Shown: positions 1,739 through 15,132 of the stretch, piece after piece
Layout: each line of letters starts with the position of its first letter
How positions within the stretch are numbered: position 1 is the stretch's first letter
Assembly: GCA_947073645.1 (NCBI GenBank)
Contig: CAMTMK010000019.1
Span: 1-34,680 of the forward strand
Reading direction: 5' to 3'
Source of the DNA: an uncultured bacterium
GTDB taxonomy: Bacteria > Cyanobacteriota > Vampirovibrionia > Gastranaerophilales > Gastranaerophilaceae
Length of the DNA stretch: 34,680 bases
The notes under the pieces: generated by a model
Database searches by the model: none
What the model saw: the letters and a program-made list of their open reading frames with translations, nothing else
What the model was told of the DNA's origin: nothing
Program-made: the position numbers and the translations under genes

Positions 1739-1742
1739 CTTT

Positions 1743-1766
1743 AAGCTCCCTGATGGGAGCTTTTTT
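1743..1766 (+). terminator. Intrinsic terminator after tail fibre gene
   Basis: Perfect 8-bp stem AAGCTCCC/GGGAGCTT with a TGAT loop runs into a T tract, 5 bases after the fibre stop codon. Confidence 0.9.
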
Positions 1767-1832
1767 ATTAACCCATGAAAACATGGATATGAGTTTGTTC
1801 ATGCTAAATCGTGGACTTTTCAAACTTTTAAA

Positions 1833-2291
1833 ATGAGTTATACTAAAAATGTGGTTAAGGTTCACGCCCAAAGATGGCAAAACCGTTTACCAAGCTCAGG
1901 GGATGATGTAATGGGGTATATTCATTGCTGCGGAGCTTTACACAAAACAAGGTCGTTTTGTCTTGCTCCTCAGGAAAATTTTTTGATGTGCGAACTGGAT
2001 TATCTGGCTAAATGTCCCGTCTGCGGGCATACAGTTGTTCAGCTGACAAGAATTGACAGGGAAGATAATATTTCTGTTGTCAGAAAAGTTAATAAAAAGG
2101 CGAGAGAATTTTTTATAAAATTAAAAAATTTAATCTTATTTGAAGAAAAAACAATTAATTATAACAAAATTAATTCCGGAAGTTTTTATTTGAATTATAA
2201 CGAATTCGGAGTAAAAAAAAGATGTTACTCAAATTTGAAAGCTTTGAAAATAGGGCTTGTTGAGAATAAAGATTTAAAACTCAATCCTTAA
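1833..2291 (+). CDS. Hypothetical Cys-rich phage protein, possible zinc ribbon
   Basis: 152 residues, function not recognised. The N-terminal half holds a CC pair (HCCGA), two further Cys, and a CPVCGH knuckle at about residues 61-66, which together could bind one or two zinc ions. The C-terminal half is Lys/Asn-rich with a short hydrophobic stretch and little predicted structure. No Shine-Dalgarno precedes the ATG, so the start is uncertain; an internal Met just before the first Cys pair is possible. It is a stand-alone unit flanked by two strong terminators, so it probably has its own promoter and is transcribed separately from the late genes, as cargo (moron) genes often are. That last point is inference. 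Confidence 0.6.
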   Translation: MSYTKNVVKVHAQRWQNRLPSSGDDVMGYIHCCGALHKTRSFCLAPQENFLMCELDYLAKCPVCGHTVVQLTRIDREDNISVVRKVNKKAREFFIKLKNLILFEEKTINYNKINSGSFYLNYNEFGVKKRCYSNLKALKIGLVENKDLKLNP

Positions 2292-2309
2292 AATTATCTT
2301 ACTCTTTAG

Positions 2310-2334
2310 GGGCGGTGTTACCGCCCGTTTTTTT
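2310..2334 (+). terminator. Intrinsic terminator
   Basis: Seven-bp stem GGGCGGT/ACCGCCC with a GTT loop, one further base and seven T. It isolates the preceding Cys-rich gene from the LuxR/endolysin genes. Confidence 0.9.
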
Positions 2335-2347
2335 AAAAGGAAATATT

Positions 2348-2395
2348 ATGAATGATTTTTGTATATTTTTTAGTATGCTTATCATAGAAAAATGA
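2348..2395 (+). CDS. Possible 15-codon leader peptide
   Basis: AAAAGG followed 7 bases later by ATG opens a 15-codon hydrophobic reading frame (MNDFCIFFSMLIIEK) ending 19 bases before the LuxR-type gene. It begins just behind the terminator, which also overlaps its promoter space. It could be a leader peptide or a chance frame; only the well-placed Shine-Dalgarno supports it. Confidence 0.25.
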   Translation: MNDFCIFFSMLIIEK

Positions 2396-2414
2396 AATAA
2401 AAAGGAATTACAGA

Positions 2415-2669
2415 ATGGCATTGTCACCAAAGGAAGCAGAAGTACTTACTTTGACTGCTTTGGGTTACTCTGATAAGGAAATAGGAGTAAAATTAAACAT
2501 TGCATATGGTACGGTAAGAAACCATATTGATAGAATCGTTTTGAAATTACACGCTCAGAATAGAACTCATGCAGTCATTATATATAAGTTATTAAATAAA
2601 CATTGGTTAGAGGAATATTATGAAACGTATCGTGATTCATTGGACAGCAGGCGGGTACTGTCCTACTGA
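2415..2669 (+). CDS. Stand-alone LuxR/GerE-type HTH regulator in prophage
   Basis: 84 residues that are almost entirely a LuxR C-terminal HTH domain: LSPKEAEVL, a turn region GYSDKEIGVKL, and a recognition helix YGTVRNHIDRI, in the order seen in NarL/LuxR-type regulators. There is no receiver or autoinducer domain. A good Shine-Dalgarno (AAGGAA) lies 8 bases before the ATG. The last 50 bases overlap the start of the amidase gene in another frame, so the two should be translationally coupled. It should bind DNA as a dimer; a role as late-gene or lysis regulator is inferred from position. Confidence 0.8.
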   Translation: MALSPKEAEVLTLTALGYSDKEIGVKLNIAYGTVRNHIDRIVLKLHAQNRTHAVIIYKLLNKHWLEEYYETYRDSLDSRRVLSY

Positions 2670-3111
2670 TTATGAAAAAGAGCATTATCATTTTCTTGTA
2701 GATAGAGATGGAGTTGTCCACAATGGAAAGTTCAAGCCCGAGGATAATGAAGTTTGTAAGGTCGGGAAATATGCAGCACACACAGGCGGTGGAAATACGG
2801 GAAGTATTGGTGTTGCAATTTGTGCAATGGCAGGGTTTAAAAATAGAAATTGTATAGGTAATTATCCTATTTTAAAGAAACAGTTTGAGAGTACGATGGA
2901 GTTTTGTGCTCAACTTGCAGAAAAATATAAACTTGAAATTTCACCGCAGACAATTATGACTCATTATGAGTTTGGGATGAAAAATCCGAAAACTACAAGT
3001 GCGGGCAAAATAGATATTATATTTATTCCGCCTTATTCTTGGGTATCGCAAAGTGAGGTCGGAAGTTTTATTCGTTCAAAAATTAAGTGGTATAAGTTAA
3101 GGGGAAAATAA
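2620..3111 (+). CDS. N-acetylmuramoyl-L-alanine amidase endolysin (Amidase_2/PGRP fold)
   Basis: 163 residues, a single catalytic domain as in T7 lysozyme (151 aa). HWTAG at residues 7-11 gives the first zinc His, AAHTGGGNTGSIGVAI (52-67) is the family core, THYEFG gives the second zinc His (115), and K130/D132 sit where the catalytic Lys and third ligand belong. It cleaves the bond between N-acetylmuramic acid and L-Ala in peptidoglycan. No signal peptide, so release would need a holin. AGAGGA precedes the ATG by about 5 bases. It overlaps the LuxR-type gene by 50 bases and is 1 base from the next gene, so it belongs to the late operon. Confidence 0.88.
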   Translation: MKRIVIHWTAGGYCPTDYEKEHYHFLVDRDGVVHNGKFKPEDNEVCKVGKYAAHTGGGNTGSIGVAICAMAGFKNRNCIGNYPILKKQFESTMEFCAQLAEKYKLEISPQTIMTHYEFGMKNPKTTSAGKIDIIFIPPYSWVSQSEVGSFIRSKIKWYKLRGK

Positions 3112-3112
3112 T

Positions 3113-4621
3113 ATGGAAACAGCTTATTATAATCTGGCAGGCGGTATCAATCAGGCATTAACCAAAACGGAGCTCGGGATTGATACGAAAAAAATTTATT
3201 GGGCAGATTCGGAAAATGTTGAAATATTTCAAAATAGAGGGATTGTCAAACAACTTGGCAATTCTTTATTTTTAGATGTGGAAGAAGAAATTACAGGACT
3301 TGCCGAAATGTCGGCTTATGACAAGAGTAAACTTGTTATTACAACTTTATCAGGAAAAATTTATGTTTATGATGATTCTAAAGGAATAATGACTCTTGTT
3401 GAAAAAGAACTTACAGGAAAGTTTCCGAGATTTTTAAATTTCCTGAATGGTATTCTTGTAATGACTGAAAGTGACGGTTTATTCTATATAAAGAATAATG
3501 ATAATTATGACATTGTAGATTGCGGATTAAAGGAATTGAACGGGGAAGTTCTTGTTGACGGGGAATTTGCTGTTTACAAGGGGAGGGTTTGGGTTGCAAA
3601 GGATGCAACAATTTATTATTCATCTCTCGGAACTTATGATAATTTTACTGAAGAAGGTGATGCAGGATATATTAATGAGTTTCATACCGATACTGGTTCA
3701 ATTACTGCTTTAAAACCTTACAAGGATTATCTCGCTGTTTATAAAAAACACAGCGTATATCTTTTGACGGGAACAACTCCTGATGATTTTGCTATTGTAC
3801 CATTTGCTGATAAGGGGGCTCAAGGCTCGGGTGCGATTGTTAATATTGAAAATAAACAATATTTTTTGAGTAACGGAATTTTTGCTCTTGAACAGGTTGG
3901 AGAGCTTAATCAAATTCAGTTAGGAAGTGAAATTTCTTTAAAGATTAAGGCAGAATTTTCGTCCTTTGTTAATTTGGATAAGGCAATAGCACTTCATTAT
4001 GAAAAGAAAAATCAGATTTGGTATTTCTTCCCGTATAACGGAAACGATTATTTTAATACTGTTTGGATTAATGATTATGTAAACAAAGCTTGGTATAAAC
4101 GTGTTATTCCTCAGGATATTGTTACTTCCTGTGTGTATGACGGTTATGTTTATACGGCAGATAAAAGCGGGAAAATTTATAAAGAAGATTTTGGAACAAC
4201 ATTTAACGGCAGTCCGATTAAGTTTATGTGGAAATCTCCGTTTCTTGCGATTACAACACCGCATCACAGGAAAATGATTGACGAATTTTATTTTCTGCTT
4301 GATACGGAATATGATAATGACTTTGATTTTTCTGTTTATAAGGATTATGACAGCGAATATTCTGATGATATTGAAAGAATTTATTCAATACATCAGGACC
4401 ATTTAATTTGGGCTGATGATGAAACTCCTGAGGATAAACCATGTCATTGGACTCCTGATGATGCATCAGTTCCCGTATGGCCAATCAATAAGGATACTAT
4501 GGAAAAAGCGGAAATTTCAGAATCAAATTACTCAATACAGCTTTGTGTTCAGGGTGAAGAAATTACACAAGCCTGCGCAATTATCGGGTTGCAGTTTAGA
4601 GAAATTTATAACGACGATTAA
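3113..4621 (+). CDS. Phage tail protein, probable P22 gp10-like tail hub/nozzle
   Basis: 502 residues, rich in short beta-strands with recurring aromatic/Gly motifs. The opening (YNLAGGINQALTKTE, then IYWADSENVEIF) and repeated blocks such as GRVWVAKDATIYYSS and PYKDYLAVYKKHSVYLLTG are typical of podovirus tail hub proteins with a beta-propeller core (P22 gp10, packaged-DNA stabilisation protein). These cap the portal-adaptor channel after packaging. GGGGAAAA precedes the ATG; the amidase stop is 1 base upstream. A gp4-like adaptor encoded downstream supports a podovirus-type short tail. The assignment is from fold-style resemblance, not from a diagnostic motif. Confidence 0.6.
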   Translation: METAYYNLAGGINQALTKTELGIDTKKIYWADSENVEIFQNRGIVKQLGNSLFLDVEEEITGLAEMSAYDKSKLVITTLSGKIYVYDDSKGIMTLVEKELTGKFPRFLNFLNGILVMTESDGLFYIKNNDNYDIVDCGLKELNGEVLVDGEFAVYKGRVWVAKDATIYYSSLGTYDNFTEEGDAGYINEFHTDTGSITALKPYKDYLAVYKKHSVYLLTGTTPDDFAIVPFADKGAQGSGAIVNIENKQYFLSNGIFALEQVGELNQIQLGSEISLKIKAEFSSFVNLDKAIALHYEKKNQIWYFFPYNGNDYFNTVWINDYVNKAWYKRVIPQDIVTSCVYDGYVYTADKSGKIYKEDFGTTFNGSPIKFMWKSPFLAITTPHHRKMIDEFYFLLDTEYDNDFDFSVYKDYDSEYSDDIERIYSIHQDHLIWADDETPEDKPCHWTPDDASVPVWPINKDTMEKAEISESNYSIQLCVQGEEITQACAIIGLQFREIYNDD

Positions 4622-4667
4622 CACCACTCATAAATATATTTAGTTATTAGAAGAAAGGAAACAAAAA

Positions 4668-5528
4668 ATGGCAGAAGAAACAACAACAAATGCTTATTCA
4701 GCATTTATTCCAGAAATTTGGAGTCAAAAATTAAACAACATGCTTGAAAAAGAATGTGTAATGCTTCAATGTGTTAACAGAAACTGGGAAGGTGAAATCA
4801 GAAATCAGGGGGATAAAGTAAAAATTATTACTCCTGCGGAAGTGTCAATTTCTACTTTAGGAAGCGATGCAATTTCTTACAGCGAATTAGAGCCGGCTTC
4901 AATGGATTTGGTTATTGACCAGAAAAAATTCTTTGCATTTAAGATTAATGATGTTGCTCAGGTTCAGGCAAATTCTGATATTATGGAAGCTCATCTTAAA
5001 AATGCTAAAAAAGCGATTGAAGAAGTTCAAGATGCTTATCTTTTATCACAACATGCTAATGCAGATGCCGGAAATATTGTAGGTTCTGACGACTCTCCGA
5101 TTACGCTTGATAAATCTACTATCTACTCACAATTTGTAAAACTTGCTTTGTGTTTGAAAAATTCAGATGCAGTATCGGCAGGTGTAAGACCTTGGGTAAT
5201 TATTAACCCTACAGTTGAAAGCTATTTATTACAAAGTACTGAATTTATCGGTGCTCACAATGTTGCTGATGAAACTTTAAGAGAAGGTGCAATCGGCAGA
5301 ATTGCAGGCATGGATGTTCTTGTAAGTACTAATTTGACTGATGTTGACGGTAAATACTATGTACTTGCAGGTACTAATGAAGCAATTACTTTTGCTTCTC
5401 AATTATCTAAAATTGAGTCATTACGTGATAAAGACAGTTTCTCTGATTTGGTTAGAGGTTTGTATTTATATGGCGCAAAAACAGTTCAGCCTAAAGCTTT
5501 GGCTAAAATGGTAGTTAAATCTGTATAG
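4668..5528 (+). CDS. Major capsid protein, probable HK97 fold
   Basis: 286 residues. The N-terminus (AYSAFIPEIWSQKLNNMLE) and the segments NQGDKVKIITPAEV, KFFAFKINDVAQVQA and RPWVIINPTVESYLL are characteristic of small P22/N4-like coat proteins that form the icosahedral shell. No protease or cleavable N-terminal delta domain is apparent. A very strong Shine-Dalgarno (AAGAAAGGAAA) stands before the ATG, and the codon usage is noticeably cleaner than in the neighbouring phage genes, both expected of the most abundant virion protein. The tail hub gene lies upstream and the likely scaffold downstream. Confidence 0.8.
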   Translation: MAEETTTNAYSAFIPEIWSQKLNNMLEKECVMLQCVNRNWEGEIRNQGDKVKIITPAEVSISTLGSDAISYSELEPASMDLVIDQKKFFAFKINDVAQVQANSDIMEAHLKNAKKAIEEVQDAYLLSQHANADAGNIVGSDDSPITLDKSTIYSQFVKLALCLKNSDAVSAGVRPWVIINPTVESYLLQSTEFIGAHNVADETLREGAIGRIAGMDVLVSTNLTDVDGKYYVLAGTNEAITFASQLSKIESLRDKDSFSDLVRGLYLYGAKTVQPKALAKMVVKSV

Positions 5529-5537
5529 GGGTAGAGC

Positions 5538-5777
5538 ATGTTTGATAGTTTAAAGACAAAAATAAAGGAGCTTGCAAAATCATCTGTGATTATTGCGGAA
5601 AAAACTCTCGGAAGCTGTAAAGGTCAAGAGAAAAAGAAAATGGCAGTAGAATATATTATAAAATATATTCCGGTGCCTGCTCCTTTTAAACTGCTTATTT
5701 CATTGTTATTGTCATCTTTTATAGATGATGCGGTGGAGTTTGCGGTTCAATATATGGAGGCAGAAAAATATGAATAA
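5538..5777 (+). CDS. Small phage protein, weakly holin-like
   Basis: 79 residues: a basic N-terminal half, one moderately hydrophobic segment (APFKLLISLLLSSFIDDA, about residues 48-65), and an acidic C-terminus. The pattern KKMAVEYIIKYIP...IDDAVEFAVQYM is reminiscent of the C-terminal part of Holin_LLH-type proteins, but the usual N-terminal transmembrane helix is missing. AGGGGTAGAG precedes the ATG. It overlaps the next gene by 8 bases. A structural accessory role next to the capsid gene is equally possible. Confidence 0.5.
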   Translation: MFDSLKTKIKELAKSSVIIAEKTLGSCKGQEKKKMAVEYIIKYIPVPAPFKLLISLLLSSFIDDAVEFAVQYMEAEKYE

Positions 5778-6372
5778 TATCGAAAATATTTCATCTCAAG
5801 CCGATAATCAAACTCAGGCACTTGTTGATGATGCTCAAAGCATAAAGCAGCGAGTTATTCAAGATGTTAAACTAATTGAAAACCTTGTGCAAACAGGGGT
5901 TATGACACAAGAGCAAGGACACAATTTAGTGAATTATGTTACTCAAAAGGCGTTTGAAAAGTACAATACAGCTCAAAATGTCCAAATTCCTCAAGCTCAA
6001 GCGGTACAGCCGGCAGTTATGCCGATTCCTGATTTCTTTAATCAGGACGGTAGAATTGATGTTTTTGATTATTTAAAACAGGCAAATGTCGATTTTGATG
6101 ATGATGAAATCTCAAAAATATCAGCGCTCGTGGAAAAAATTGAAAATTCCGCAGTAGACAAATACTTGAGAGCACAAAATCACGAAAAAACATTAAACAT
6201 CGAGAATGAATCCGCAAAACAAAGATTGCGTGCAAATGCACAAAATTCAGTTTCTGACGGTGCAAAAAATTTGGTTTTTACTCGTGAACAAATCGGTAAA
6301 ATGAGTGGTGCAGAATTTGCTAAGCATGAACGTGCGATTATGGACCAGTTAAGAAAAGGTCTTATAAAATAG
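5770..6372 (+). CDS. Probable capsid scaffolding protein
   Basis: 200 residues, almost wholly helical and highly charged, Gln/Asn/Ala-rich, with no hydrophobic core visible: the composition expected of scaffolding proteins. The end (FTREQIGKMSGAEFAKHER, then AIMDQLRKGLI) resembles the C-terminal helix-turn-helix by which such proteins bind the coat. The start at 5770 is chosen because GGAGG sits 9 bases upstream and it overlaps the preceding stop by 8 bases; a longer frame starting at 5725 lacks a ribosome site. The position directly after the coat gene fits. Alternative: another minor head protein. Confidence 0.5.
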   Translation: MNNIENISSQADNQTQALVDDAQSIKQRVIQDVKLIENLVQTGVMTQEQGHNLVNYVTQKAFEKYNTAQNVQIPQAQAVQPAVMPIPDFFNQDGRIDVFDYLKQANVDFDDDEISKISALVEKIENSAVDKYLRAQNHEKTLNIENESAKQRLRANAQNSVSDGAKNLVFTREQIGKMSGAEFAKHERAIMDQLRKGLIK

Positions 6373-6394
6373 TGAATTCTAAAAATCTTTTGGG

Positions 6395-6424
6395 AAAGAG
6401 CAGTCTTTTTAGGCTGTTCTTTCT
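6395..6424 (+). terminator. Terminator-like hairpin between scaffold and adaptor genes
   Basis: Twelve-bp stem (AAAGAGCAGTCT with AGGCTGTTCTTT, two G-U pairs) and a TTTT loop. The following T run is broken by C, so it may only attenuate, lowering expression of adaptor and packaging genes relative to coat protein. Confidence 0.5.
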
Positions 6425-6457
6425 TGAAAGTGGAAAGTAAAAAGGATAAGTAAAACA

Positions 6458-7096
6458 ATGAACTATTTAGAACTTATAAATAAATGTCTGGTAGAGCTTA
6501 ATTATAAACAGGTTAATGCGTTTTCTGAGCTTACCAAAAATGACCATAAAAAGTTAAAAAATATTATTAATGTATTGAATGCTGAAATTTGTAATTCTGA
6601 CAGGTGGAATTTCTTACAGAGAAAAGCTGAATTTAAGCTGCCGAAAAACACCTGCGAACTTGAAAATACGGTAGAAGGAAGAATTGAAGCATTAATTATA
6701 GATGGAGTTAAATTTGATTATTATGATGATTTTGAGAAATTTTTTGTTAACTCTCAGCCTCAAAATACTTATAGTTTCTATAATGATAAGATTTTACTTC
6801 CTATGTTTAGTAAAGAGAAAAAAATAGAAGTTCTTTATTATACAAAAAATTGTGCAAAATCATCTGGCGGACAAGAAAAGTTTTCATTGGAAGAAGCTGA
6901 AGATATATCTCTTATTCCTGAACCGTTTGTTGAACCCTTACTTGTTTTCGGGGCATGTATGCGTTTGAAAGGCAACCCCCAGCATGTTCGTTTCAGTTAT
7001 TGGTTGAACATGTATAAAGATGCATTAGCAAATATGCGTTCAAAAATTTCTCCCAGTATTGATGAAACACCGTCGGTTAAAATGTATCGAAGGTAA
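6458..7096 (+). CDS. Head-to-tail adaptor, P22 gp4-like
   Basis: 212 residues. The start (MNYLELINKCLVELNY), the mid-region SDRWNFLQRK and the C-terminal helix region (SLIPEPFVEPLLVFGACMR followed by W-L-N-M-Y-K) match the pattern of podovirus tail adaptor proteins (P22 gp4, T7 gp11 family), which form a dodecameric ring under the portal. The ISLIPEPFVEPLL block is the most telling. AAAAAGGA lies about 10 bases before the ATG. It is separated from the scaffold gene by a terminator-like hairpin, and from the small terminase gene by 161 bases. Confidence 0.65.
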   Translation: MNYLELINKCLVELNYKQVNAFSELTKNDHKKLKNIINVLNAEICNSDRWNFLQRKAEFKLPKNTCELENTVEGRIEALIIDGVKFDYYDDFEKFFVNSQPQNTYSFYNDKILLPMFSKEKKIEVLYYTKNCAKSSGGQEKFSLEEAEDISLIPEPFVEPLLVFGACMRLKGNPQHVRFSYWLNMYKDALANMRSKISPSIDETPSVKMYRR

Positions 7097-7257
7097 TTGC
7101 TTTATGCGAATTTTCGCATAAAGAAAACAGGAAGTTTAAAATTCATTTTCCCCTCCTGTTAAGATTTACACTAGCCGAAATATAAATAGCATGATTATTA
7201 TACAATTTATTTTCAGAAAACACAAATAATACAAAGAATTGTTAAGAAAAGTACACA

Positions 7258-7692
7258 ATGAAACAGTTAACCCAACAACAAAAGAAATTCGTAACAGAAT
7301 ATATAAAGACCTTAAATGGTGAGCTTTCGGCGCAAAAAGCCGGCTATAAATCCAAAGATTTGAAAACAACAGCATCAGAACTTTTGTCAAATGAAGTTGT
7401 AATAAAAGAAATCAGATTGCAGTTAAAAACTCAAATTTCTTCATTACGTGTAAACAAAGGTTATGTGATACAAAAGTTATTGCAAATTGCCGAATTTTCA
7501 CTTGAAGAAGAAGATATTTTGGATAAAGAAGGTGGTTATACCGGTAAAAAGAAGCTTCGCGATACCTCTGCCGGCTTGAAAGCTCTTGAAAGCCTTTGTA
7601 AATACCTCGGATTTTATACAGACAAGCCTGAGGAGAATTACAAACAGGCGAAAATTATAACAATCTCCAACCTTGACGATAGCAAGATATAA
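7258..7692 (+). CDS. Terminase small subunit (Terminase_2 type)
   Basis: 144 residues. The N-terminus, LTQQQKKFVTEYIKTLNG then AQKAGYKSK and ASELLSNEVVIKEI, is the diagnostic DNA-binding HTH region of Terminase_2 small subunits; the central helices form the oligomerisation core. It recognises the packaging site on the concatemer and hands DNA to the large subunit. No clear Shine-Dalgarno precedes the ATG, unusual in this operon. The packaging site normally lies in or near this gene. Confidence 0.85.
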   Translation: MKQLTQQQKKFVTEYIKTLNGELSAQKAGYKSKDLKTTASELLSNEVVIKEIRLQLKTQISSLRVNKGYVIQKLLQIAEFSLEEEDILDKEGGYTGKKKLRDTSAGLKALESLCKYLGFYTDKPEENYKQAKIITISNLDDSKI

Positions 7693-7762
7693 TGGAAATG
7701 GTGGAACGGGAACGAGCAAGAGCGAGTGACTGACCAAAAAAGTTTACGGAAAGGATAAAATA

Positions 7763-8113
7763 ATGAAAAATAATGATGTAGAACAGATGCTTTTGAATAA
7801 TGCATCTTTAGAAGATTTGATTAAAATGAAAATCGAAAAAGAATTCATGGCAGATTTGGAAAAATCAAAACAAAAACCGCAAAAAAAGGTTTATACAAAT
7901 ATTAAAGAACTGCCAAAGGAAATGATTTTTTCCAAAAATTCAATTTACAGATATTTCAACAGAAATACAAAATGTGAAAGTTTTATTAACGGAATTCAGG
8001 CTGAAGCTTTAATAGGACTTCAAAACAACGTCAGACAAAATATGTTGAAAGGTGAGTTGAGTGCTTTTACAACAGATGATGCGTATGTCAAGTTTGAAAA
8101 GGCGGAATTTTAA
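7763..8113 (+). CDS. Hypothetical phage protein
   Basis: 116 residues, not recognised. Charged and helical N-terminal half (Lys/Glu-rich) followed by a conserved-looking C-terminal half: SIYRYFNRNTKCESFINGIQ, then ALIGLQNNVRQ and a DDAYVKFEKAEF tail. AAAGGA lies 9 bases before the ATG. It ends 2 bases before the GNAT gene, so the two are probably co-translated; a partnership with the acetyltransferase is inference. Confidence 0.6.
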   Translation: MKNNDVEQMLLNNASLEDLIKMKIEKEFMADLEKSKQKPQKKVYTNIKELPKEMIFSKNSIYRYFNRNTKCESFINGIQAEALIGLQNNVRQNMLKGELSAFTTDDAYVKFEKAEF

Positions 8114-8115
8114 AA

Positions 8116-8634
8116 ATGCCGAAATTTTTACATCCGTTTGAAAAACCTGCTTATTTTGAGCAGGCTTTATTTTTATATATAAAATATTCAAAATTTTTGG
8201 ATGACGATTATGCGCAAAACGGTTTGCCGATTTACGACTATTTTTTGAACCTTATAAACAACACTTTGTTTTTTGTGATTGTCGAAGATGATTTGGTGAG
8301 TGGTTTTGTTTATCTTGACAATTTTAGGGGAAGTGATGAAAAACTGCACAGCGCCGAGCTTACAACTTGTTTTGATAAACGTTTTTGGGGCGGTTATACA
8401 AAAGTATGTGCGCGGATTTTTCTTGACCACTGTTTTGAAAAATATAGGTTTGAAAAGATTAAGGCGCTTGTTTATCCTGAAAATTTTCGGGTAAAAACTT
8501 TATTGAAATCAGTGGGCTTTGAAAAAGAAGCTTTGCTGAATGGTGAAACTTTAAGAAATAACAAATTGCAGGATATTGAAGTGTATTCTTGCAGAAAGGA
8601 AAAGCGGGTGCGTGAGCGCCTGACAGATAAATAA
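8116..8634 (+). CDS. Phage-encoded GNAT N-acetyltransferase
   Basis: 172 residues with a GNAT fold. Strand beta-4 ELTTCFDKRFWGG leads into the acetyl-CoA loop (RFWGGYTK, a variant of R/Q-x-x-G-x-G/A), then the long helix ending HCFEKYRFEKIKALV, and NFRVKTLLKSVGFEKE, the typical last motif of RimJ/RimL-like (Acetyltransf_3) enzymes. Acceptor unknown. GNAT genes recur next to terminase/portal genes in some podoviruses; whether the enzyme acts on a virion or host protein cannot be read from the sequence. Confidence 0.78.
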   Translation: MPKFLHPFEKPAYFEQALFLYIKYSKFLDDDYAQNGLPIYDYFLNLINNTLFFVIVEDDLVSGFVYLDNFRGSDEKLHSAELTTCFDKRFWGGYTKVCARIFLDHCFEKYRFEKIKALVYPENFRVKTLLKSVGFEKEALLNGETLRNNKLQDIEVYSCRKEKRVRERLTDK

Positions 8635-8668
8635 TAAGTCCGGCTAATGTCGGCAGAAAGGGTAAAAA

Positions 8669-10330
8669 ATGTTAATTGAAACAGAAGATTTAACACAAAA
8701 TTTATCAGATGTTGATGAAAAATTTTTGGTGAGTAGTATTGTTGAAAAATACGACAAATTTAATGATTCCAGAAACCAGCAGATTACTGACATAAAACTT
8801 ATCAGGGATGCAATTTATAACTCGGATGTGCCCAAAATTAACGGCTGGGACAGCAGAATAGAACTTCCTGATATTTATGAGCTGGCGCAGACTTTAAAAT
8901 CTCATATCAGTCAGAATTTATATTCACATCCTGATGCAATGTTTGATGTGTCTGGAACAACTCCGCAGACACAAAGTTTTGCAAACAGACAAAAAGCAAT
9001 GCTTGTTAATACTTTTGAACAGATGAATATTCAAAATGAGATTGAAAAAGTTATTGACGGAATTGTAGAAACCGGTGAGGCAACTCTTTTTGTCGGCTGG
9101 GAAACTAAAATTAAATCGGTAAGACGTGTAAAAACTCTTGAAGAACAAGAGTTATACCCTGATAATAACAACTTTATTCTTGATGAAAAAATGATTTATG
9201 ATAACGCAAAAATTAAACATATTAAATCAGAAGATTTTGTGTTTGATAAATTCAATCGTGAAAATTGGGATAAATGTGCAAAGATTTACAGAACATATTC
9301 GACAATTGATGAATTGTTCTCTGATAAATCAAATAACTTTTTAGATGATAGAAAATTGGAAGTTTTGAAAGGAGTGGTGGCAGGTAAAAAGTACAAAAAC
9401 AGTGATGGTAATGCTGTTGACGGCAATAAATTGGAAATTTTGGAGTTTTGGGGAGACATTGAACTTGCGGATGGGAAACTTTTAAAAAACCGTTTGATAG
9501 TAGTTGCCGGCAGACGAGAAATTATTCGTTGCGAAGCAAATCCGTTTGTAATTAATCCGTTTATTCATGCAAATATTATTGAATCTCCGCAGACAGGCAG
9601 AGGAATTTCTCCGCTTCGTGTTGCGTTGATTTTGAACAGTCTTGCATCAACGATTTTGAACAAACAAATTGATGCGCTTTCTTTGATGATGAATCCTCCT
9701 TATTTAGCACCAAAAGGTTGTTTTAAAGGGCAGCAGGATGTAAGACCGGGTAAAATCATTGAATATGATTCTGCATTAATGCCTACTGCCCCAATGCCTT
9801 TGAGCTTTGATAAAGCAATGGTTGGCTGGGATTTCTTGAATTACTTTAAATCAACAATCGAAAGTGCGACAGGAATTTTCAAAAATATGGCAGGAAATCT
9901 TCAATCTGCCGAACGTACCGCGACGGAATTAAATTACTCCGTAAGTGGTCAGGAAGCTCGTTTGAACATGATTTTGGATGCGATAAACAGAAAAATTATT
10001 GTTCCTATGGTTGAAAAAACCGCAGAAATTATTTCATACTTTAAACTTGGCAGAGAGTTAATCGGGGTTAATGACCATGGAAAAACTTGTTTCTTAGAAG
10101 TTGATGATGAGGTTAGAAATGCGAATTACGTTTATCGTTACGGTGACAGAAAAGCAACATTTGAGCGTAAACTTCGCTTAAAAGAATTGTTTGAAGTTGT
10201 ACGTTCATTCGCACAAGTTCCCGAAGTTGAGGAGCGTATTGATTGGCTTGAATGTTTCAAATTTGCACTTGAACAATACGGAATAGAAAATGCAAATAAT
10301 TTTTTGTTAGATGATAAAAAGGTGTCGTAA
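8669..10330 (+). CDS. Portal protein, P22-like
   Basis: 553 residues, shorter than P22 gp1 (725). The N-terminal region GWDSRIELPDIYELAQTLKS, the core block SPQTGRGISPLRVALILNSL, and the later TATELNYSVSGQEARLNMI are typical of podovirus portals. The dodecamer at the unique vertex is the DNA channel and docks the terminase and adaptor. AAAGGG precedes the ATG. The reading frame ends inside a terminator hairpin whose loop is the TAA stop codon. Confidence 0.8.
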   Translation: MLIETEDLTQNLSDVDEKFLVSSIVEKYDKFNDSRNQQITDIKLIRDAIYNSDVPKINGWDSRIELPDIYELAQTLKSHISQNLYSHPDAMFDVSGTTPQTQSFANRQKAMLVNTFEQMNIQNEIEKVIDGIVETGEATLFVGWETKIKSVRRVKTLEEQELYPDNNNFILDEKMIYDNAKIKHIKSEDFVFDKFNRENWDKCAKIYRTYSTIDELFSDKSNNFLDDRKLEVLKGVVAGKKYKNSDGNAVDGNKLEILEFWGDIELADGKLLKNRLIVVAGRREIIRCEANPFVINPFIHANIIESPQTGRGISPLRVALILNSLASTILNKQIDALSLMMNPPYLAPKGCFKGQQDVRPGKIIEYDSALMPTAPMPLSFDKAMVGWDFLNYFKSTIESATGIFKNMAGNLQSAERTATELNYSVSGQEARLNMILDAINRKIIVPMVEKTAEIISYFKLGRELIGVNDHGKTCFLEVDDEVRNANYVYRYGDRKATFERKLRLKELFEVVRSFAQVPEVEERIDWLECFKFALEQYGIENANNFLLDDKKVS

Positions 10331-10341
10331 CGACACCTTTT
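10317..10341 (+). terminator. Terminator hairpin with the portal stop codon as its loop
   Basis: Eleven-bp perfect stem AAAAGGTGTCG/CGACACCTTTT; the 3-base loop is the TAA stop codon of the portal gene. Only four T follow the stem, and a terminating ribosome would cover the hairpin, so read-through into the terminase gene is likely. Confidence 0.75.
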
Positions 10342-10391
10342 AGATTGCTAATGAAATAATAAAAATAAAAGAAATAAATTCATTTAATTTC

Positions 10392-10598
10392 ATGTGTAAA
10401 TTTATAGCAAAAAGGAAAATTTATGACAATGCGATAAGAGAACAATGGGGTAAAGTAGGTATTCCGAGTGAGCGGGATTTGCCTAAGGAAAGTAAAAAAT
10501 CGGTTTCAACAAAATCAAATGGTTCATCTAAAGATGGCGATTCATCAGTTGGTAAATGGGTAACGATTAATGGAAATCACGTTTTGATTAAAGACTGA
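10392..10598 (+). CDS. Small phage protein with C-terminal WVTINGNHV motif
   Basis: 68 residues: a basic N-terminus, a Ser/Lys/Gly linker, and the ending GKWVTINGNHVLIKD. That ending belongs to a short motif that recurs at the C-termini of phage minor head and other virion-associated proteins; its role is not established. The ATG at 10392 has no Shine-Dalgarno. A good one (AAAGGA) serves an ATG at 10423 in another frame that stops after four codons, so the 5' end may be frameshifted or mis-called. It stops 25 bases before the large terminase start. Confidence 0.55.
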   Translation: MCKFIAKRKIYDNAIREQWGKVGIPSERDLPKESKKSVSTKSNGSSKDGDSSVGKWVTINGNHVLIKD

Positions 10599-10623
10599 TT
10601 TAATGAAAAGTAGACGGGGGATT

Positions 10624-11913
10624 ATGTTATATAAATTATTAAAAGCTCAGCGGGAGTTTTTGGAAATTCCGCATAATTACAGCTTGGATGTAGCGGTTTA
10701 TCAAGGGGGATATGGTTCGGGAAAAACTTTTTCAGGTTCTCTTTTGGGTATTTTGCTTGCGGTAAAATTTCCAGGTGTGCGCGGGCTAGTCGGTGCACAG
10801 ACTTATACGCTTGTTAGAGACACTACCCTGCAAACCTATTTTGAACACCTTGAAAATTTCGGTTTTGTGGAAGGTGTTGATTATGATTGGTCATCATCTT
10901 TGCAAAAATTAACTTTTAAAAACGGTTCGGAAATCCTTTTCAGGCATTTTGACGAACCTAACAAATTAAAATCTTTAAACTTAGGGTTTGTGGAGATTGA
11001 AGAAATGTCCGATGTACCTTATGATACCTTTAAAGTTCTTTTAAGCCGTATGCGTCAGCGTATTAAAAAAGATTGGAAAGGTTTCAGGCACAGAATATTC
11101 GGTCACACAAATCCTGAAATGCAAAGAGGTTGGGTTTATAAAACTTTTGTTGAAAATTCTGCGCCGAATTATAGACTTATTTCAGCTCCGACTACTCAAA
11201 ATATTTATCTGCCTGAAGGTTTTTGCAATGAACTTAAAAAGATTTATGATGAGCAATATTACAACATTTTTGTACTTGCCAAGAACGGTGAATATAATAA
11301 CGGTCTTGTGATAAAAGATTTTACTGATGAAAACGTAAAAGATATTGCTTATCAGCCGGAAATGGATTTGCATATTTCATGCGATTTTAACGTTGATCCG
11401 ATGTGCTGGGTTTTTGCTCATAAAACAGATGATAAGGTGTTTTATTTTGATGAAATTGCAATGGAAAATACTACGACTGCAAAAGCATGTGATGAATTTT
11501 TGCGCCGTTATCCCGCTCATAAGGGAAGAGTAATCGTAAATGGCGATGCATCAGGTGATAACAGAAGTTGTACTAGCGAGTATACAAATTACGTAATTAT
11601 TAAGAAAAAACTTCTCCAATACGGTTATGATGCAGAAATTCAGATTAAAGCTTTCAATCCGCCTATCAAAAACAGGATTATGGCGTTCAATTCAAAGGTT
11701 CGTTCTGCTGATGGCGAAATATGTCTTTTTATCGATAAAAAATGTGAAAAGCTTCTTTATAATATTTATAATCTTAAATATAAAGAGGGTTCATCAAAGA
11801 TTGATATTCCGACCTATAGTCAAATTAAGCAGTCTAAGGAATTGAAATTTCTCTCACATCCTATGGATGCAGCATCTTATCTTGTAGATTTTTATTGGCC
11901 TATTACATTGTAG
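10624..11913 (+). CDS. Terminase large subunit
   Basis: 429 residues from this start. ATPase domain: Walker A GGYGSGKT (28-35), Walker B GFVEIEE (121-127) with catalytic Glu. RNase H-like nuclease domain: CDFNVDP (D254), NGDASGD (D308) and HPMDAASYL (D415) supply the metal-binding Asp residues. It pumps DNA into the prohead through the portal and cuts the concatemer. An ATG 21 bases earlier (10603) has no ribosome site, whereas GGGGGA lies right before 10624, so I prefer the shorter form. Unusually it follows the portal gene rather than preceding it. Confidence 0.93.
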   Translation: MLYKLLKAQREFLEIPHNYSLDVAVYQGGYGSGKTFSGSLLGILLAVKFPGVRGLVGAQTYTLVRDTTLQTYFEHLENFGFVEGVDYDWSSSLQKLTFKNGSEILFRHFDEPNKLKSLNLGFVEIEEMSDVPYDTFKVLLSRMRQRIKKDWKGFRHRIFGHTNPEMQRGWVYKTFVENSAPNYRLISAPTTQNIYLPEGFCNELKKIYDEQYYNIFVLAKNGEYNNGLVIKDFTDENVKDIAYQPEMDLHISCDFNVDPMCWVFAHKTDDKVFYFDEIAMENTTTAKACDEFLRRYPAHKGRVIVNGDASGDNRSCTSEYTNYVIIKKKLLQYGYDAEIQIKAFNPPIKNRIMAFNSKVRSADGEICLFIDKKCEKLLYNIYNLKYKEGSSKIDIPTYSQIKQSKELKFLSHPMDAASYLVDFYWPITL

Positions 11914-11923
11914 AGGATTTGTT

Positions 11924-12154
11924 ATGGAACATTTTATTGAATATTCTCCAATTATTGTTGTGGTATTAATGTTTTTTATTCAGCAAAGAATATTTGTAAC
12001 ACCAGAACAATTGGAGAAAAAACATAGAGAAATTATTGATGAAATTGAAGAAAAATTTGTATCAATGAATAGTTTTATAGATTTGAAAGAACAGTTTAGT
12101 GAAGTTAAGGACAAAATTGATAAAATTTATGATCTTCTGATTGATTTGAAATAA
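11924..12154 (+). CDS. Small membrane protein with coiled coil, holin/DUF2730-like topology
   Basis: 76 residues: one N-terminal transmembrane helix (PIIVVVLMFFIQQ, about residues 9-21) followed by a charged heptad-rich helix to the end. This order is seen in DUF2730-like phage proteins and in some holin or spanin-like lysis accessories. GAGGA precedes the ATG; 10 bases separate it from the terminase stop. It is the last prophage-like gene before the chromosomal section. A lysis role is inference; the endolysin is at the other end of the cluster. Confidence 0.6.
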   Translation: MEHFIEYSPIIVVVLMFFIQQRIFVTPEQLEKKHREIIDEIEEKFVSMNSFIDLKEQFSEVKDKIDKIYDLLIDLK

Positions 12155-12188
12155 TGTTAATAATTGTTACAAAAATCTCATATTTTTT

Positions 12189-12216
12189 TAAAGTTTCATG
12201 CAAAAAGTGCCGATAA
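12189..12216 (+). promoter_or_regulatory. Sigma-28 (FliA)-type promoter
   Basis: TAAAGTTT (12189-12196), 12-base spacer, GCCGATAA (12209-12216). Both blocks match the enterobacterial FliA consensus (TAAAGTTT-N11-GCCGATAA) at all 16 positions; only the spacer is one base longer. It lies 41 bases before the ATG of the 566-residue protein. Confidence 0.7.
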
Positions 12217-12257
12217 AACGAGTAATAGGTTACTAAGTTAAATCAGAAAGGAAAATC

Positions 12258-13958
12258 ATGGGACTGGCGGCTTCACAAGCAAGATTTCTAGCCATAACAT
12301 CAAGAAAGATGAACTGTGAATTCCAATCTATGCAGATTGCACAGCAAAAACTTTCTGTTACCCGTGATTTGCAAAAAGCAGCACAGGATTATCAGACTAA
12401 TCTTACCGCTACTAAACTTGTATGGGAAGATATGGATGGTAATACTTATGATGTAACATATGATATGATGATGACTCCTACTGCAATTAACCAGTATGAT
12501 CCATATTTAATTACTGATACTCAAGGCAAAATAGTATTAACTGACAGTATGTATAATGCAGCAGTTGCAGCAGGTATAATTGAAGCAAGTACTGGTAATC
12601 CTACCGGAGTATCCGGACTTATGAGTAAAGGCATGGGTACTACTTCAACAACAGACGGTACAAGAGATGCATTCTTATATCAATTAGGTATTGTTAATCA
12701 AGTTGACGGTTCAACAGTAGCAGCTATTCAGGAGCTTGGACAATATGGTTATAGTAAAGCCGGTATTGGTGGTGATATTCAAGATAAATCTATAGCAAAT
12801 GCTTTGTCTAGTACTGCGTTTATTAACTATTTAGGTAAAACATATAAAGAAGCAGGTGTAGAACCTCCAATGAAAGAAGATGGTTCAGGTAAGGTTGATA
12901 AAAATACTTCAATTTATGGTATAAATTTAGTTGATGCTTTGGGAAGCGGTTACAACTGGGTATCTGATTCTAATTTGAACGAGAAAGATGGTGGAAGTGT
13001 AAAACCAAATCAGATTGTTGTTACTAAAAATGGTCAGGCATTATCTGCAGCTAGTGTTGCCGGTTTAACTCTTGGTGATATTCTTACGGGTAATTATGAA
13101 TTATCATACAGGGGTAATGACTTTGCACAAACTGTAGTTCAACAAGTGTTGAGCAAAATGGCCGAAACTCTTGGTATGGGGTATACAGGTTCTGATCCTA
13201 AAGGCTTGAATGTTGATAATGAATCTTATGATGCATTGACACAAGCTTTTGATTTTACTTTTGCTCAGTATAGTGCAACTTCATCTGCAACAACTAATAA
13301 TACAAATGTGGTAGATAAATTGAGTACTCAAGCTAGGGGGCAAAATAATATTATTACAGGTAATGATAATAAAAGTTCGGTCAGTTTGACAAATATGTTA
13401 AAATCATATTTAACAAATTTTGCTATAGCTATAGATGGTTTTGATACTGCATTTCATATTAACAATACATCTTCAAAAGAGAGTGTTTATGCAACTGATG
13501 ACTTAAATTATTATTTCTTATTAGCTAATGACGGTGCTCAAACAGAACAATCAATGTTGAAAGCAGATTTTTATAATATGTTATATAACCAAATTTGTAT
13601 GAACGGTGCTTGTTCTGATGCAACTAAGCGAGATTTAGTGACTGATAAAGAATATTTAGCACACGCTTTGAAAAATGGTCAGTTATTTATTTCATCATTA
13701 AATAATGATGGTTATTTCTATCAAGGACCATATACTCTTAACGGACATGTCGGAGAAGTCCCAGATGAAGCTGCTATTACGCAGGCTGAACTTGAGTATA
13801 ATGTTACAAAAAGCAAATTAAATTATAAAGAACAAACGCTTGAACTGGATATGAAAAATCTTGATATGGAAATTTCAGCACTTACTACAGAGTATGATAC
13901 GGTTAAAAACCTTATAAGTAAAGGTGTTGAAAAAGTGTTTACGATGTTTAGTAATTAA
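12258..13958 (+). CDS. Filament/secreted-protein-like protein with helical ends, MGLAASQAR family
   Basis: 566 residues, no signal peptide, no recognised domain. The N-terminal ~55 residues form a polar helix opening MGLAASQARFLAITSRK; the last ~60 residues are another long helix with heptads (AELEYNVTKSKLNYKEQ onward, ending KGVEKVFTMFSN). Between them lies a Gly/Asn/Thr-rich, variable-looking middle with DG repeats. Conserved helical ends and a variable centre are the layout of flagellin, hook-associated and type III secreted filament proteins, and the upstream promoter is of the flagellar sigma-28 type. I recall similar ASQAR starts in uncharacterised proteins of gut bacteria, without a known function. 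AGAAAGGAAAA gives a strong ribosome site. A secreted or filament-forming role is inference; it does not look like a phage gene. Confidence 0.75.
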   Translation: MGLAASQARFLAITSRKMNCEFQSMQIAQQKLSVTRDLQKAAQDYQTNLTATKLVWEDMDGNTYDVTYDMMMTPTAINQYDPYLITDTQGKIVLTDSMYNAAVAAGIIEASTGNPTGVSGLMSKGMGTTSTTDGTRDAFLYQLGIVNQVDGSTVAAIQELGQYGYSKAGIGGDIQDKSIANALSSTAFINYLGKTYKEAGVEPPMKEDGSGKVDKNTSIYGINLVDALGSGYNWVSDSNLNEKDGGSVKPNQIVVTKNGQALSAASVAGLTLGDILTGNYELSYRGNDFAQTVVQQVLSKMAETLGMGYTGSDPKGLNVDNESYDALTQAFDFTFAQYSATSSATTNNTNVVDKLSTQARGQNNIITGNDNKSSVSLTNMLKSYLTNFAIAIDGFDTAFHINNTSSKESVYATDDLNYYFLLANDGAQTEQSMLKADFYNMLYNQICMNGACSDATKRDLVTDKEYLAHALKNGQLFISSLNNDGYFYQGPYTLNGHVGEVPDEAAITQAELEYNVTKSKLNYKEQTLELDMKNLDMEISALTTEYDTVKNLISKGVEKVFTMFSN

Positions 13959-13977
13959 GATATTTAATTTTCTTAAC

Positions 13978-14001
13978 TAATCACTTGATTAACCTTTGTT
14001 T
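13978..14001 (+). terminator. Weak terminator-like hairpin
   Basis: Six-bp stem TAATCA/TGATTA with a 2-base loop, then a T-rich run interrupted by G. Marginal stability. Confidence 0.3.
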
Positions 14002-14009
14002 TTGTGTTT

Positions 14010-14123
14010 TTATAAGTTTGGAATGGGGCAATTCCTCTTAGCCTTGTTCAAGGGCTTGCCAAATACGGCGCGGCTGCAGTGTATGACAGGCTCGATGGTT
14101 ACATAAAAATAAGGGAAAACAAA
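14010..14123 (+). promoter_or_regulatory. Structured GC-richer leader upstream of rpsP
   Basis: This block has clearly more G+C than its surroundings. It can fold into consecutive hairpins: GGAAT/ATTCC (14020-14035 region), AGCCTTG with CAAGGGCT (one bulge, 14040-14057), and GCC/GGC further on. One frame (ATG 14023 to TAA 14106) encodes a 27-residue peptide ending 17 bases before rpsP; another is open into rpsP itself. It may be an autoregulatory leader or a gene remnant. Confidence 0.3.
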
Positions 14124-14486
14124 ATGTTAAAAATCAGATTAAAAAGATTAGGTGCTAAAAAAGCTCCTACATACAGAATTATCGTTATTAATTCAACAAC
14201 AAAACGTGAAGGCAGACCGGTTCAAGAATTGGGTCACTATAATCCAAAAACTAAAGTTATGAAATTAGACTTGGCAGCAGCTCAAGATTGGATTAAAAAA
14301 GGTGCTCAGCCTACTGAAACTGTTGCATACTTGATTAAAAACTGCAACGAAGACGGTACTTTGAACTATGTTAAAAAAGAAACAGTAAAACTTTCTAAAA
14401 AAGCACAAGCTAAAAAAGAAGCTGAAGAAAAAGCTGCTGCTGAAGCAGCTGCGGCAGCGGCAGAAGAAGCACCGGCTGAAGCGTAA
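14124..14486 (+). CDS. rpsP: 30S ribosomal protein S16
   Basis: 120 residues. [19 protein letters not shown], then [14 protein letters not shown] and [20 protein letters not shown], are the S16 signature order. S16 binds 16S rRNA in the body of the small subunit and is needed for assembly. The body is of usual length; beyond it, from about residue 95, there is a Lys then Ala/Glu-rich tail (poly-Ala with acidic residues), which is a low-complexity extension. The start at 14124 has AAGGGA upstream; the frame could be extended to a GTG at 14079 but without a ribosome site. It is followed by a strong terminator. The usual neighbours (rimM, trmD, ffh) are absent here. Confidence 0.96.
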
Positions 14487-14501
14487 GAAATTATTTCACA
14501 T

Positions 14502-14537
14502 AAAAAAGAAGTCGTTTTAAAAACGACTTCTTTTTTT
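14502..14537. terminator. Bidirectional terminator between rpsP and the convergent hypothetical gene
   Basis: Stem GAAGTCGTT/AACGACTTC with a small A/T loop, flanked by six A on one side and seven T on the other, so it works on both strands. Confidence 0.93.
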
Positions 14538-14538
14538 A

Positions 14539-15018
14539 TTAATCATTATATTTACTTATTTCAACAAAATAATTTTCTAATGCCAAGTAGCCTTTGTAAA
14601 GTTCGTTTGATATGCTTGCATAGCTTGTAGCTACAATAAATTTTAATTCTTTGGTTCTGATTTCTAATATTGCGTCAGAATCAGCTTTTAATTTTTCGTC
14701 TGCGGAAACTGCCCATTTCTGTAATAATTCTAATTCTTCATACATTTGTTTTACTGTTGTAAATTCAAGTGTATTGAAATCATATTTTGCCAGAAGTGCC
14801 TGTTCAGCTTTTGTAATTCTTGCCATAACAGCTTGAAATTTAAAAACTCGTTTTATAATAACATAGTTATCAGCCATTTTTCTGTGTGAATATGGAATTA
14901 TATTTTTAGCTAAGAGTGCTGCGTATGAACGTGATGTGAATACTTCATCTTCACGTGAAAAAGCACTTCTTGAAGTCAAGTCAAAATTTGATTTCTTTTC
15001 TATTAAATCTTCCGGCAT
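14539..15018 (-). CDS. Hypothetical helical protein
   Basis: 159 residues, all-helical prediction, no membrane segment and no recognised motif. Distinct blocks: a polar N-terminus with TSRSAFSREDEVFTSRSY, a basic RKMADNYVIIKRVFKF segment, then long amphipathic helices, with a conserved-looking tail LYKGYLALENYFVEI. GGGGG lies 6 bases before the ATG. It stands alone between two terminators, convergent with rpsP. Confidence 0.7.
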   Translation of the reverse strand: MPEDLIEKKSNFDLTSRSAFSREDEVFTSRSYAALLAKNIIPYSHRKMADNYVIIKRVFKFQAVMARITKAEQALLAKYDFNTLEFTTVKQMYEELELLQKWAVSADEKLKADSDAILEIRTKELKFIVATSYASISNELYKGYLALENYFVEISKYND

Positions 15019-15100
15019 TTCTACCCCCTATTAATATAATCATATGAAAAGCAAAGTTGATTGTCATGGTATGAAGTCAAGATTTTTACATGATTTAACA

Positions 15101-15132
15101 AAAAAGAAACCGATTAAAAATCGATTTCTTTT
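15101..15132 (-). terminator. Terminator after speD
   Basis: On the minus strand AAAGAAATCGATT pairs with AATCGGTTTCTTT (one G-U), followed by six T. It lies about 40 bases after the speD stop. Confidence 0.8.

Follow-up and report, generated by a model that had tools for sequence, protein, structure and literature searches.

The ASQAR gene, its promoter and its predicted protein

The window analysed in this study is a stretch of 34,680 nt from an uncultured bacterium of the order Gastranaerophilales (class Vampirovibrionia; assembly GCA_947073645.1, contig CAMTMK010000019.1, forward strand). Its plus strand carries, at 12258-13958, an open reading frame with an ATG start that codes for a protein of 566 amino acids (aa), a member of what we call the ASQAR family. 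A ribosome-binding site, AAAGGA, can be read directly from the sequence about 6 nt upstream of the start codon (12247-12252, plus strand). Further upstream on the same strand, at 12189-12216, consensus matching locates a sigma-28 promoter composed of TAAAGTTT (12189-12196), a 12-nt spacer and GCCGATAA (12209-12216). This promoter stands 42 nt before the ATG and matches 16/16 specified bases of the E. coli sigma-28 consensus, TAAAGTTT-n11-GCCGATAA (PMC2859248), with a spacer one base longer. Exact matches number two in the 1.71-Mb genome, the window site and one other, and none in the reversed-sequence control. Both the sigma-28 promoter and the absence of a signal peptide had been proposed in an original prediction made from the sequence alone, and both hold: no Sec signal is present, and hydropathy over 17 aa peaks at 0.29 within the first 40 residues.

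The same prediction pictured helical, conserved-looking ends around a Gly/Asn-rich centre. In the AlphaFold2 model, built from a 58-row homologue alignment (mean predicted local distance difference test score, pLDDT, 84.9; predicted template modelling score, pTM, 0.63), a predicted N-terminal helix with the start MGLAASQAR spans residues 2-49 (12261-12404, plus strand) and is the most conserved part of the family. The variable central domain, residues 50-503 (12405-13766, plus strand), is predicted to be mostly folded and is missing from homologues of 109 aa, and the predicted C-terminal helix, residues 504-565 (13767-13952, plus strand), would pack on the N-terminal one according to the model and structural alignment. 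Over the 58 homologues, conservation amounts to 3.3 and 3.2 bits per column in the N- and C-terminal helices, versus 1.6-1.7 at residues 151-425; hence, the pattern of conserved ends and a variable centre is real. Residues M1, G2, A5, Q7, A8, R9, L11, T14 and R16 are invariant across the 58 sequences. The enrichment of the centre stands in part, since its Gly and Asn content exceeds that of other long open reading frames (18.6% vs 12.2 +/- 2.7%), but the excess is modest and the centre is mostly predicted to be folded and not disordered.

With VIA-align 2, structural alignment of the model gave only a small number of matches, all to helical or coiled-coil proteins (LidA, Z 8.5; SilC, 4.8; SmhA, 4.6). 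On the LidA coiled coil, 98 residues spanning positions 1-555 of the window protein were placed with a root-mean-square deviation of 3.0, and 91 residues spanning 1-558 were placed on a contiguous 92-residue stretch of SilC. These alignments, taken without inspection of the coordinates, are what an antiparallel pair of N- and C-terminal helices would give. In keeping with the pairing of the ends that the original prediction had envisaged, the long end helices of the model thus align jointly onto antiparallel coiled coils. Helix pairs commonly score in this way, so the values do not show relatedness, and the matches to LidA, SilC and SmhA were taken as ordinary helix pairing. The model of a short paralogue (locus L190, 5-row alignment) has a mean pLDDT of 49.5 and a poor centre, with confidently predicted end helices at residues 3-47 and 282-356.

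The window protein has no match in Pfam, Flagellin_N (PF00669) included, or in PHROGs, and no significant one in NCBIfam. Foldseek found no significant match to the model in the PDB or among viral structures, and a profile search of PDB sequences returned nothing for the long form and only chance coiled coils for the short form. Homology to flagellin, FlgK, FlgL, FliD, rod proteins, hook proteins and FliE was rejected as well, with a profile-profile (hhalign) probability of at most 0.5% each. The termini are indeed unlike those of flagellin, as had been noted from the sequence.

The ASQAR family and its sigma-28 sites

The window protein is no lone oddity but belongs to a large paralogous family: a paralogue search found nine ASQAR members in this genome, window copy included. 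Seven are complete long proteins of 323-617 aa, and one is a mini form of 108 aa (contig C8:24642-24968). Another gene is split across contig ends (C5:94162-95976 and C30:2-286), which suggests that C5 and C30 adjoin. The long members share the same M1 to R16 set of residues at their start, and within their last 35 residues the positions occupied by L, D, E, T, E, K and F are conserved. A profile scan of 84,980 species genomes revealed at least 485 relatives; most of the best 79 of these loci carry Gastranaerophilales, uncultured-bacterium or Melainabacteria labels, and the few names that differ, such as Fusobacterium and Clostridiaceae, look like misnamed bins. In a 291-genome sample of the phylum, none of the matches listed falls outside the order of the window genome. 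Lengths vary widely. ASQAR proteins of families f6 and f12, which belong to the same class, go down to 109 aa, that is, the two termini alone, which from their sequence would form a helix, a turn with a D-P motif and a second helix. At the other extreme, the largest open frame reaches 1053 aa in genome G211, which holds 37 matched stretches (31 in G140), and the ASQAR centre ranges in length from zero to about 900 aa.

Sigma-28-like sites, defined as having at most 3/16 mismatches and lying within 200 nt upstream, precede 56/75 ASQAR genes of other species versus 12/489 other genes in the same loci, and occur in 0.9% of shuffled upstream sequences. The associated Fisher p value (about 1e-48) overstates independence because the ASQAR genes are related. 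These sites are kept in genomes that have no flagellin to drive. When a matrix derived from the ASQAR sites was run on the window genome, it found 14 sites above 18 bits, versus 1 in the control, and six of the 14 precede ASQAR genes. Other sigma-28-like sites of this genome precede unknown proteins, one of them of 1658 aa; strong sites stand before such genes at C2:59434-64410, C2:74266-74571, C6:12201-12722, C9:74584-75081, C21:12292-13566 and C28:17968-18369, whose products are candidates for further substrates or chaperones of the exporter described below. An HD-GYP protein is preceded by a weaker site, and its homologue at locus L138 has a site with one mismatch. A gene for a FliA/WhiG-type sigma factor, under the family cut-off, adjoins flhB in the window genome.

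T2, a flagellum-derived exporter separate from the flagellum

One operon of the window genome holds FlhA, FliH, FliF and FliE, as identified with Pfam; the protein in the fliG position of this operon has no FliG domain in Pfam. FlhB, FliI, FliPQR, a FliM/N-type protein, FlgB, FlgC and two FlgF/G-like proteins are encoded at other loci, and the type III export core (FlhA, FlhB, FliP, FliQ, FliR, FliI, FliH and FliF) is all present. The stretch C11:2-1421 codes for a FliK-like fragment, recognised by visual inspection of its sequence, and for a short hook-like protein of 292 aa (C11:543-1421). The genome also codes for a soluble 492-aa protein that consists of the cytoplasmic, C-terminal domain of FlhA alone (C27:8587-10065, locus L019), and similar soluble paralogues of 490-500 aa are present in other families of the order. 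In the same genome, the Flagellin_N profile matches nowhere, queries with E. coli FliC, FliD, FlgK, FlgL, FlgD, FlgH, FlgI and MotA gave nothing convincing, and flagellins, FlgD and a long FlgE from G211 matched only rod-like proteins; some of these negatives come from E. coli queries, by which diverged proteins can go unnoticed. The proposal of export by the flagellar apparatus is thus partly supported, in that a flagellum-derived exporter is encoded; of a flagellum itself, flagellin, filament, cap, junction, ring and stator parts were not found.

In a tree of 36 FlhA proteins, for which 18 ASQAR genomes were sampled, FlhA from 18/18 ASQAR genomes forms a single clade, here named T2 (support 100/100). 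Many of these genomes have a flagellar FlhA as well, which lies outside this clade. T2 FlhA scores 702 bits with the NCBIfam model of FlhA and 591 bits with that of SctV, in both cases below the cut-off (772 and 692 bits, respectively). The T2 locus runs FlgG-FlgG-FlgB-FlgC-FliE-FliF-x-FliH-FlhA, followed by FliI in some genomes, and the flagellar locus runs FlhA-FlhB-FliR-FliQ-FliP where the operon is intact. T2 is a system separate from the flagellum, and flagellated relatives carry the genes of both. A degenerate flagellum as the source of these genes is disfavoured because the same genomes carry two FlhA clades.

We then scanned 240 genomes of the class (drafts, at least 90% complete) for ASQAR, the FlhA family (FHIPEP) and flagellin, which occur in 196, 213 and 81 of them, respectively. 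Every ASQAR genome has an FlhA-family match (196/196), and ASQAR is found in 0/27 genomes without the FlhA family. The family is thus not spread among genomes devoid of flagella and type III secretion, in line with the original prediction. Among the matches listed, flagellin is missing from about 120 of the ASQAR genomes, and ASQAR from five flagellated genomes of family f7.

Linkage points in the same direction as co-occurrence. In families f1, f2, f3, f6 and f12, an ASQAR gene adjoins the gene for a conserved Gly/Ala-rich protein of 272-302 aa with moderately hydrophobic stretches. This 272-aa family occurs in 190 genomes, 190/190 of them ASQAR-positive, and in 26 genomes, among the matches listed, its gene lies 7-15 kb from the T2 flhA. 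In the window genome, the order at C8:24.6-27.3 kb is the 108-aa mini ASQAR, a 90-aa protein, the 272-aa protein and a 323-aa ASQAR protein, and this cluster stands a few kb from the T2 operon. A 109-aa ASQAR hairpin, a 272-aa-family protein and a homologue of the 90-aa family also appear in a 273,876-bp record filed as 'Microcystis phage MaAM05' (GenBank MW495066.1, 129602-135703; locus L346), beside acpS and scpB. This record is probably a fragment of a bacterial chromosome.

Function of the ASQAR proteins

On balance, we lean towards the view that the window protein is exported late, under sigma-28 control, by T2, a non-motile flagellum-derived type III exporter, and that it assembles outside the cell through its paired end helices. 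The evidence favours the earlier suggestion that a flagellar-type apparatus exports the protein as an undescribed filament, cap or effector resembling flagellin, except that the apparatus is the separate T2 system and not the flagellum. In this scheme, T2 would build a basal body, a rod and a short hook, and a FliK-like switch would then change export specificity. Sigma-28 would turn on the ASQAR genes, whose products would exit unfolded through T2 and, in the manner of flagellin and needle subunits, stack outside through the paired helices of their two ends, so that the variable central domain is displayed at the cell surface. The 109-aa two-helix members may represent an unadorned needle-like form, and the long paralogues may be decorated subunits or alternative ones.

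Several observations weigh against this reading. Searches of the PDB, viral structures and profiles linked the window protein, by sequence or by fold, to none of the filament, needle or secreted proteins, and antiparallel helices are common. The window copy follows a phage-like cluster, away from the T2 operon, and the mini-hairpin gene beside the 272-aa gene often has no clear sigma-28 site. Two ASQAR-positive genomes, G074 and G156, show the soluble FlhA C-terminal paralogue only and no full-length FlhA; the 272-aa family is missing there too, so one region may be absent from these assemblies. Moreover, the sister clade of T2 FlhA, in families f7-f9, comes without the 272-aa family and without ASQAR, which was not found in f7-f9 even by the hairpin profile. 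A T2-like machine can therefore exist without either. Sister-clade FlhA is located at L238, L239, L240, L251, L253 and L254 (families f7, f8 and f9); the f8 and f9 genomes also lack flagellin, and their machines may use other substrates. Finally, an ASQAR gene of the flagellated genome G211 sits between flagellins and hook genes, so export by the flagellum is possible in flagellated relatives. At this locus (L257, G211:C1:161000-180000, 8561-15110), the gene codes for a 221-aa protein and comes directly after two flagellin genes, near FlgE and FlgD.

The chief rival, to which we give a lesser though appreciable probability, holds that the long ASQAR proteins are cargo secreted or injected by T2. 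Their shared ends would then be an export signal and chaperone-binding helices, and only the short hairpins, or none, would be structural. The several paralogues per genome with divergent folded centres suit this idea, as do their separate sigma-28 promoters at scattered loci, a promoter type shared with other unknown proteins that include the one of 1658 aa. The Gly/Ala-rich neighbour of the 272-aa family, with its moderately hydrophobic stretches, might be part of a translocon. However, it is not the N-terminus alone that is conserved: both termini are strongly conserved and predicted to pair, and one sub-group consists of the termini only, which fits an assembly core better than a signal. 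We judge it improbable that ASQAR proteins belong to an ordinary flagellum as late filament-associated or cap-like components that persisted after the loss of flagellin. The sigma-28 promoter and the gene order in G211 would be expected from such parts, but the many genomes that keep ASQAR without flagellin, the flagellated f7 genomes without ASQAR and the T2 clade found in every ASQAR genome tested, distinct from flagellar FlhA, all speak against it. Unsecreted cytoplasmic coiled-coil partners of the exporter, such as a ruler, chaperone or regulator, would account for the long helical ends and for structural matches that are all coiled-coil; their large folded centres, which vary, their numerous paralogues and the late class of their promoters nevertheless set them apart from known cytoplasmic factors of type III secretion systems (T3SS), and we hold this idea to be similarly improbable.

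The least probable of these explanations takes the window copy for a virion or release component of the adjacent phage-like cluster. In other species, too, an ASQAR gene comes after a terminase gene and a 76-aa open reading frame, with the order unchanged, and both are present on some short viral contigs. But immediately behind the cluster stands a sigma-28 promoter that belongs to the window gene, the eight other family members of the genome are located elsewhere, and homologues at L140, L144, L146, L169 and L207 have no phage genes. The cluster itself, at 71-12154 of the window and directly upstream of the ASQAR gene, is structural in character and comprises a tail fibre, an endolysin, an internal virion protein, a major head protein, TerS, a GNAT protein, a T7-like connector, TerL and a small open reading frame. 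The terminase and small open reading frame precede an ASQAR gene in about 12 other Gastranaerophilales loci, with different host genes downstream. With 78-92% identity, TerL is conserved to about the same degree as a nearby host gene, which suggests that the element is vertically kept and perhaps domesticated or akin to a gene transfer agent.

The favoured reading of ASQAR proteins as assembling T2 substrates can be set against known systems. Like flagellin FliC and FlgK/FlgL (PF00669 and relatives), they have conserved helical termini, a variable centre, no Sec signal, a sigma-28 promoter and several paralogues; unlike these, they show no detectable homology by Pfam or profile-profile comparison and occur without flagellin, cap, junction and stator genes. 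The SctF needle proteins (PrgI/MxiH/YscF) are likewise around 100 aa long, and the 109-aa ASQAR proteins may, to judge from sequence, share their helix-turn-helix plan; they are encoded near the gene of a conserved hydrophobic protein. Yet the start MGxAASQAR is conserved in ASQAR, most members hold a large inserted domain (566 aa in all for the window protein), and nine short members compared with Pfam matched no needle family, only coiled coils by chance.

Regarding the exporter, non-flagellar T3SS descended from flagella, and the Myxococcales have an intermediate without motility genes that was once annotated as a relic (Abby and Rocha, 2012; PMC3459982). T2 resembles it as a flagellum-derived exporter without motility genes, but keeps FliE, FlgB/C/F/G-type rods and FliK- and hook-like proteins, and its FlhA is below the cut-offs of both FlhA and SctV. 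Buchnera retains a basal body and exporter without flagellin or motor, and no secreted proteins have been identified there (PMC8109811). T2 is similar in having basal body and exporter genes without those of flagellin or motor, and differs in that a candidate substrate family is co-inherited with it and flagellated relatives also carry a separate flagellum. The reduced flagellar gene sets of Melainabacteria MEL.A1 and other Gastranaerophilales, in which filament, cap, junction and L/P ring genes are missing, are probably the same set and were read as reduction or loss (Di Rienzi et al., 2013, PMC3787301; Soo et al., 2014, PMC4040986). By contrast, the FlhA tree and the genomes with two systems point to a separate, maintained machine. 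Searches of the openly licensed literature yielded no report of a type III system from this group, which is weak negative evidence.

We consider the wider proposal to be evenly balanced: most Vampirovibrionia tested, gut Gastranaerophilales included, would carry an unrecognised non-motile T3SS. This system would have been derived from the flagellum in an event separate from the origin of known injectisomes, and would have a sigma-28 regulon of its own, ASQAR filament or needle subunits and a companion membrane-interacting protein. Flagellated members would run it beside a true flagellum, and the 'degenerate flagella' would be T2. If this is true, the retention of supposed relic flagellar genes in most of these genomes is explained, and a widespread gut lineage, the sister group of photosynthetic cyanobacteria, possesses a contact or surface machine that nobody sought. 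T2 would add to the cases in which a flagellum has become a secretion device; its anatomy would be intermediate, with rod- and hook-like parts kept and motor and filament gone, and ASQAR would constitute a family of filament subunits unrelated to flagellin or known needles. The ASQAR proteins would thereby be testable candidates for what basal bodies without flagellin export.
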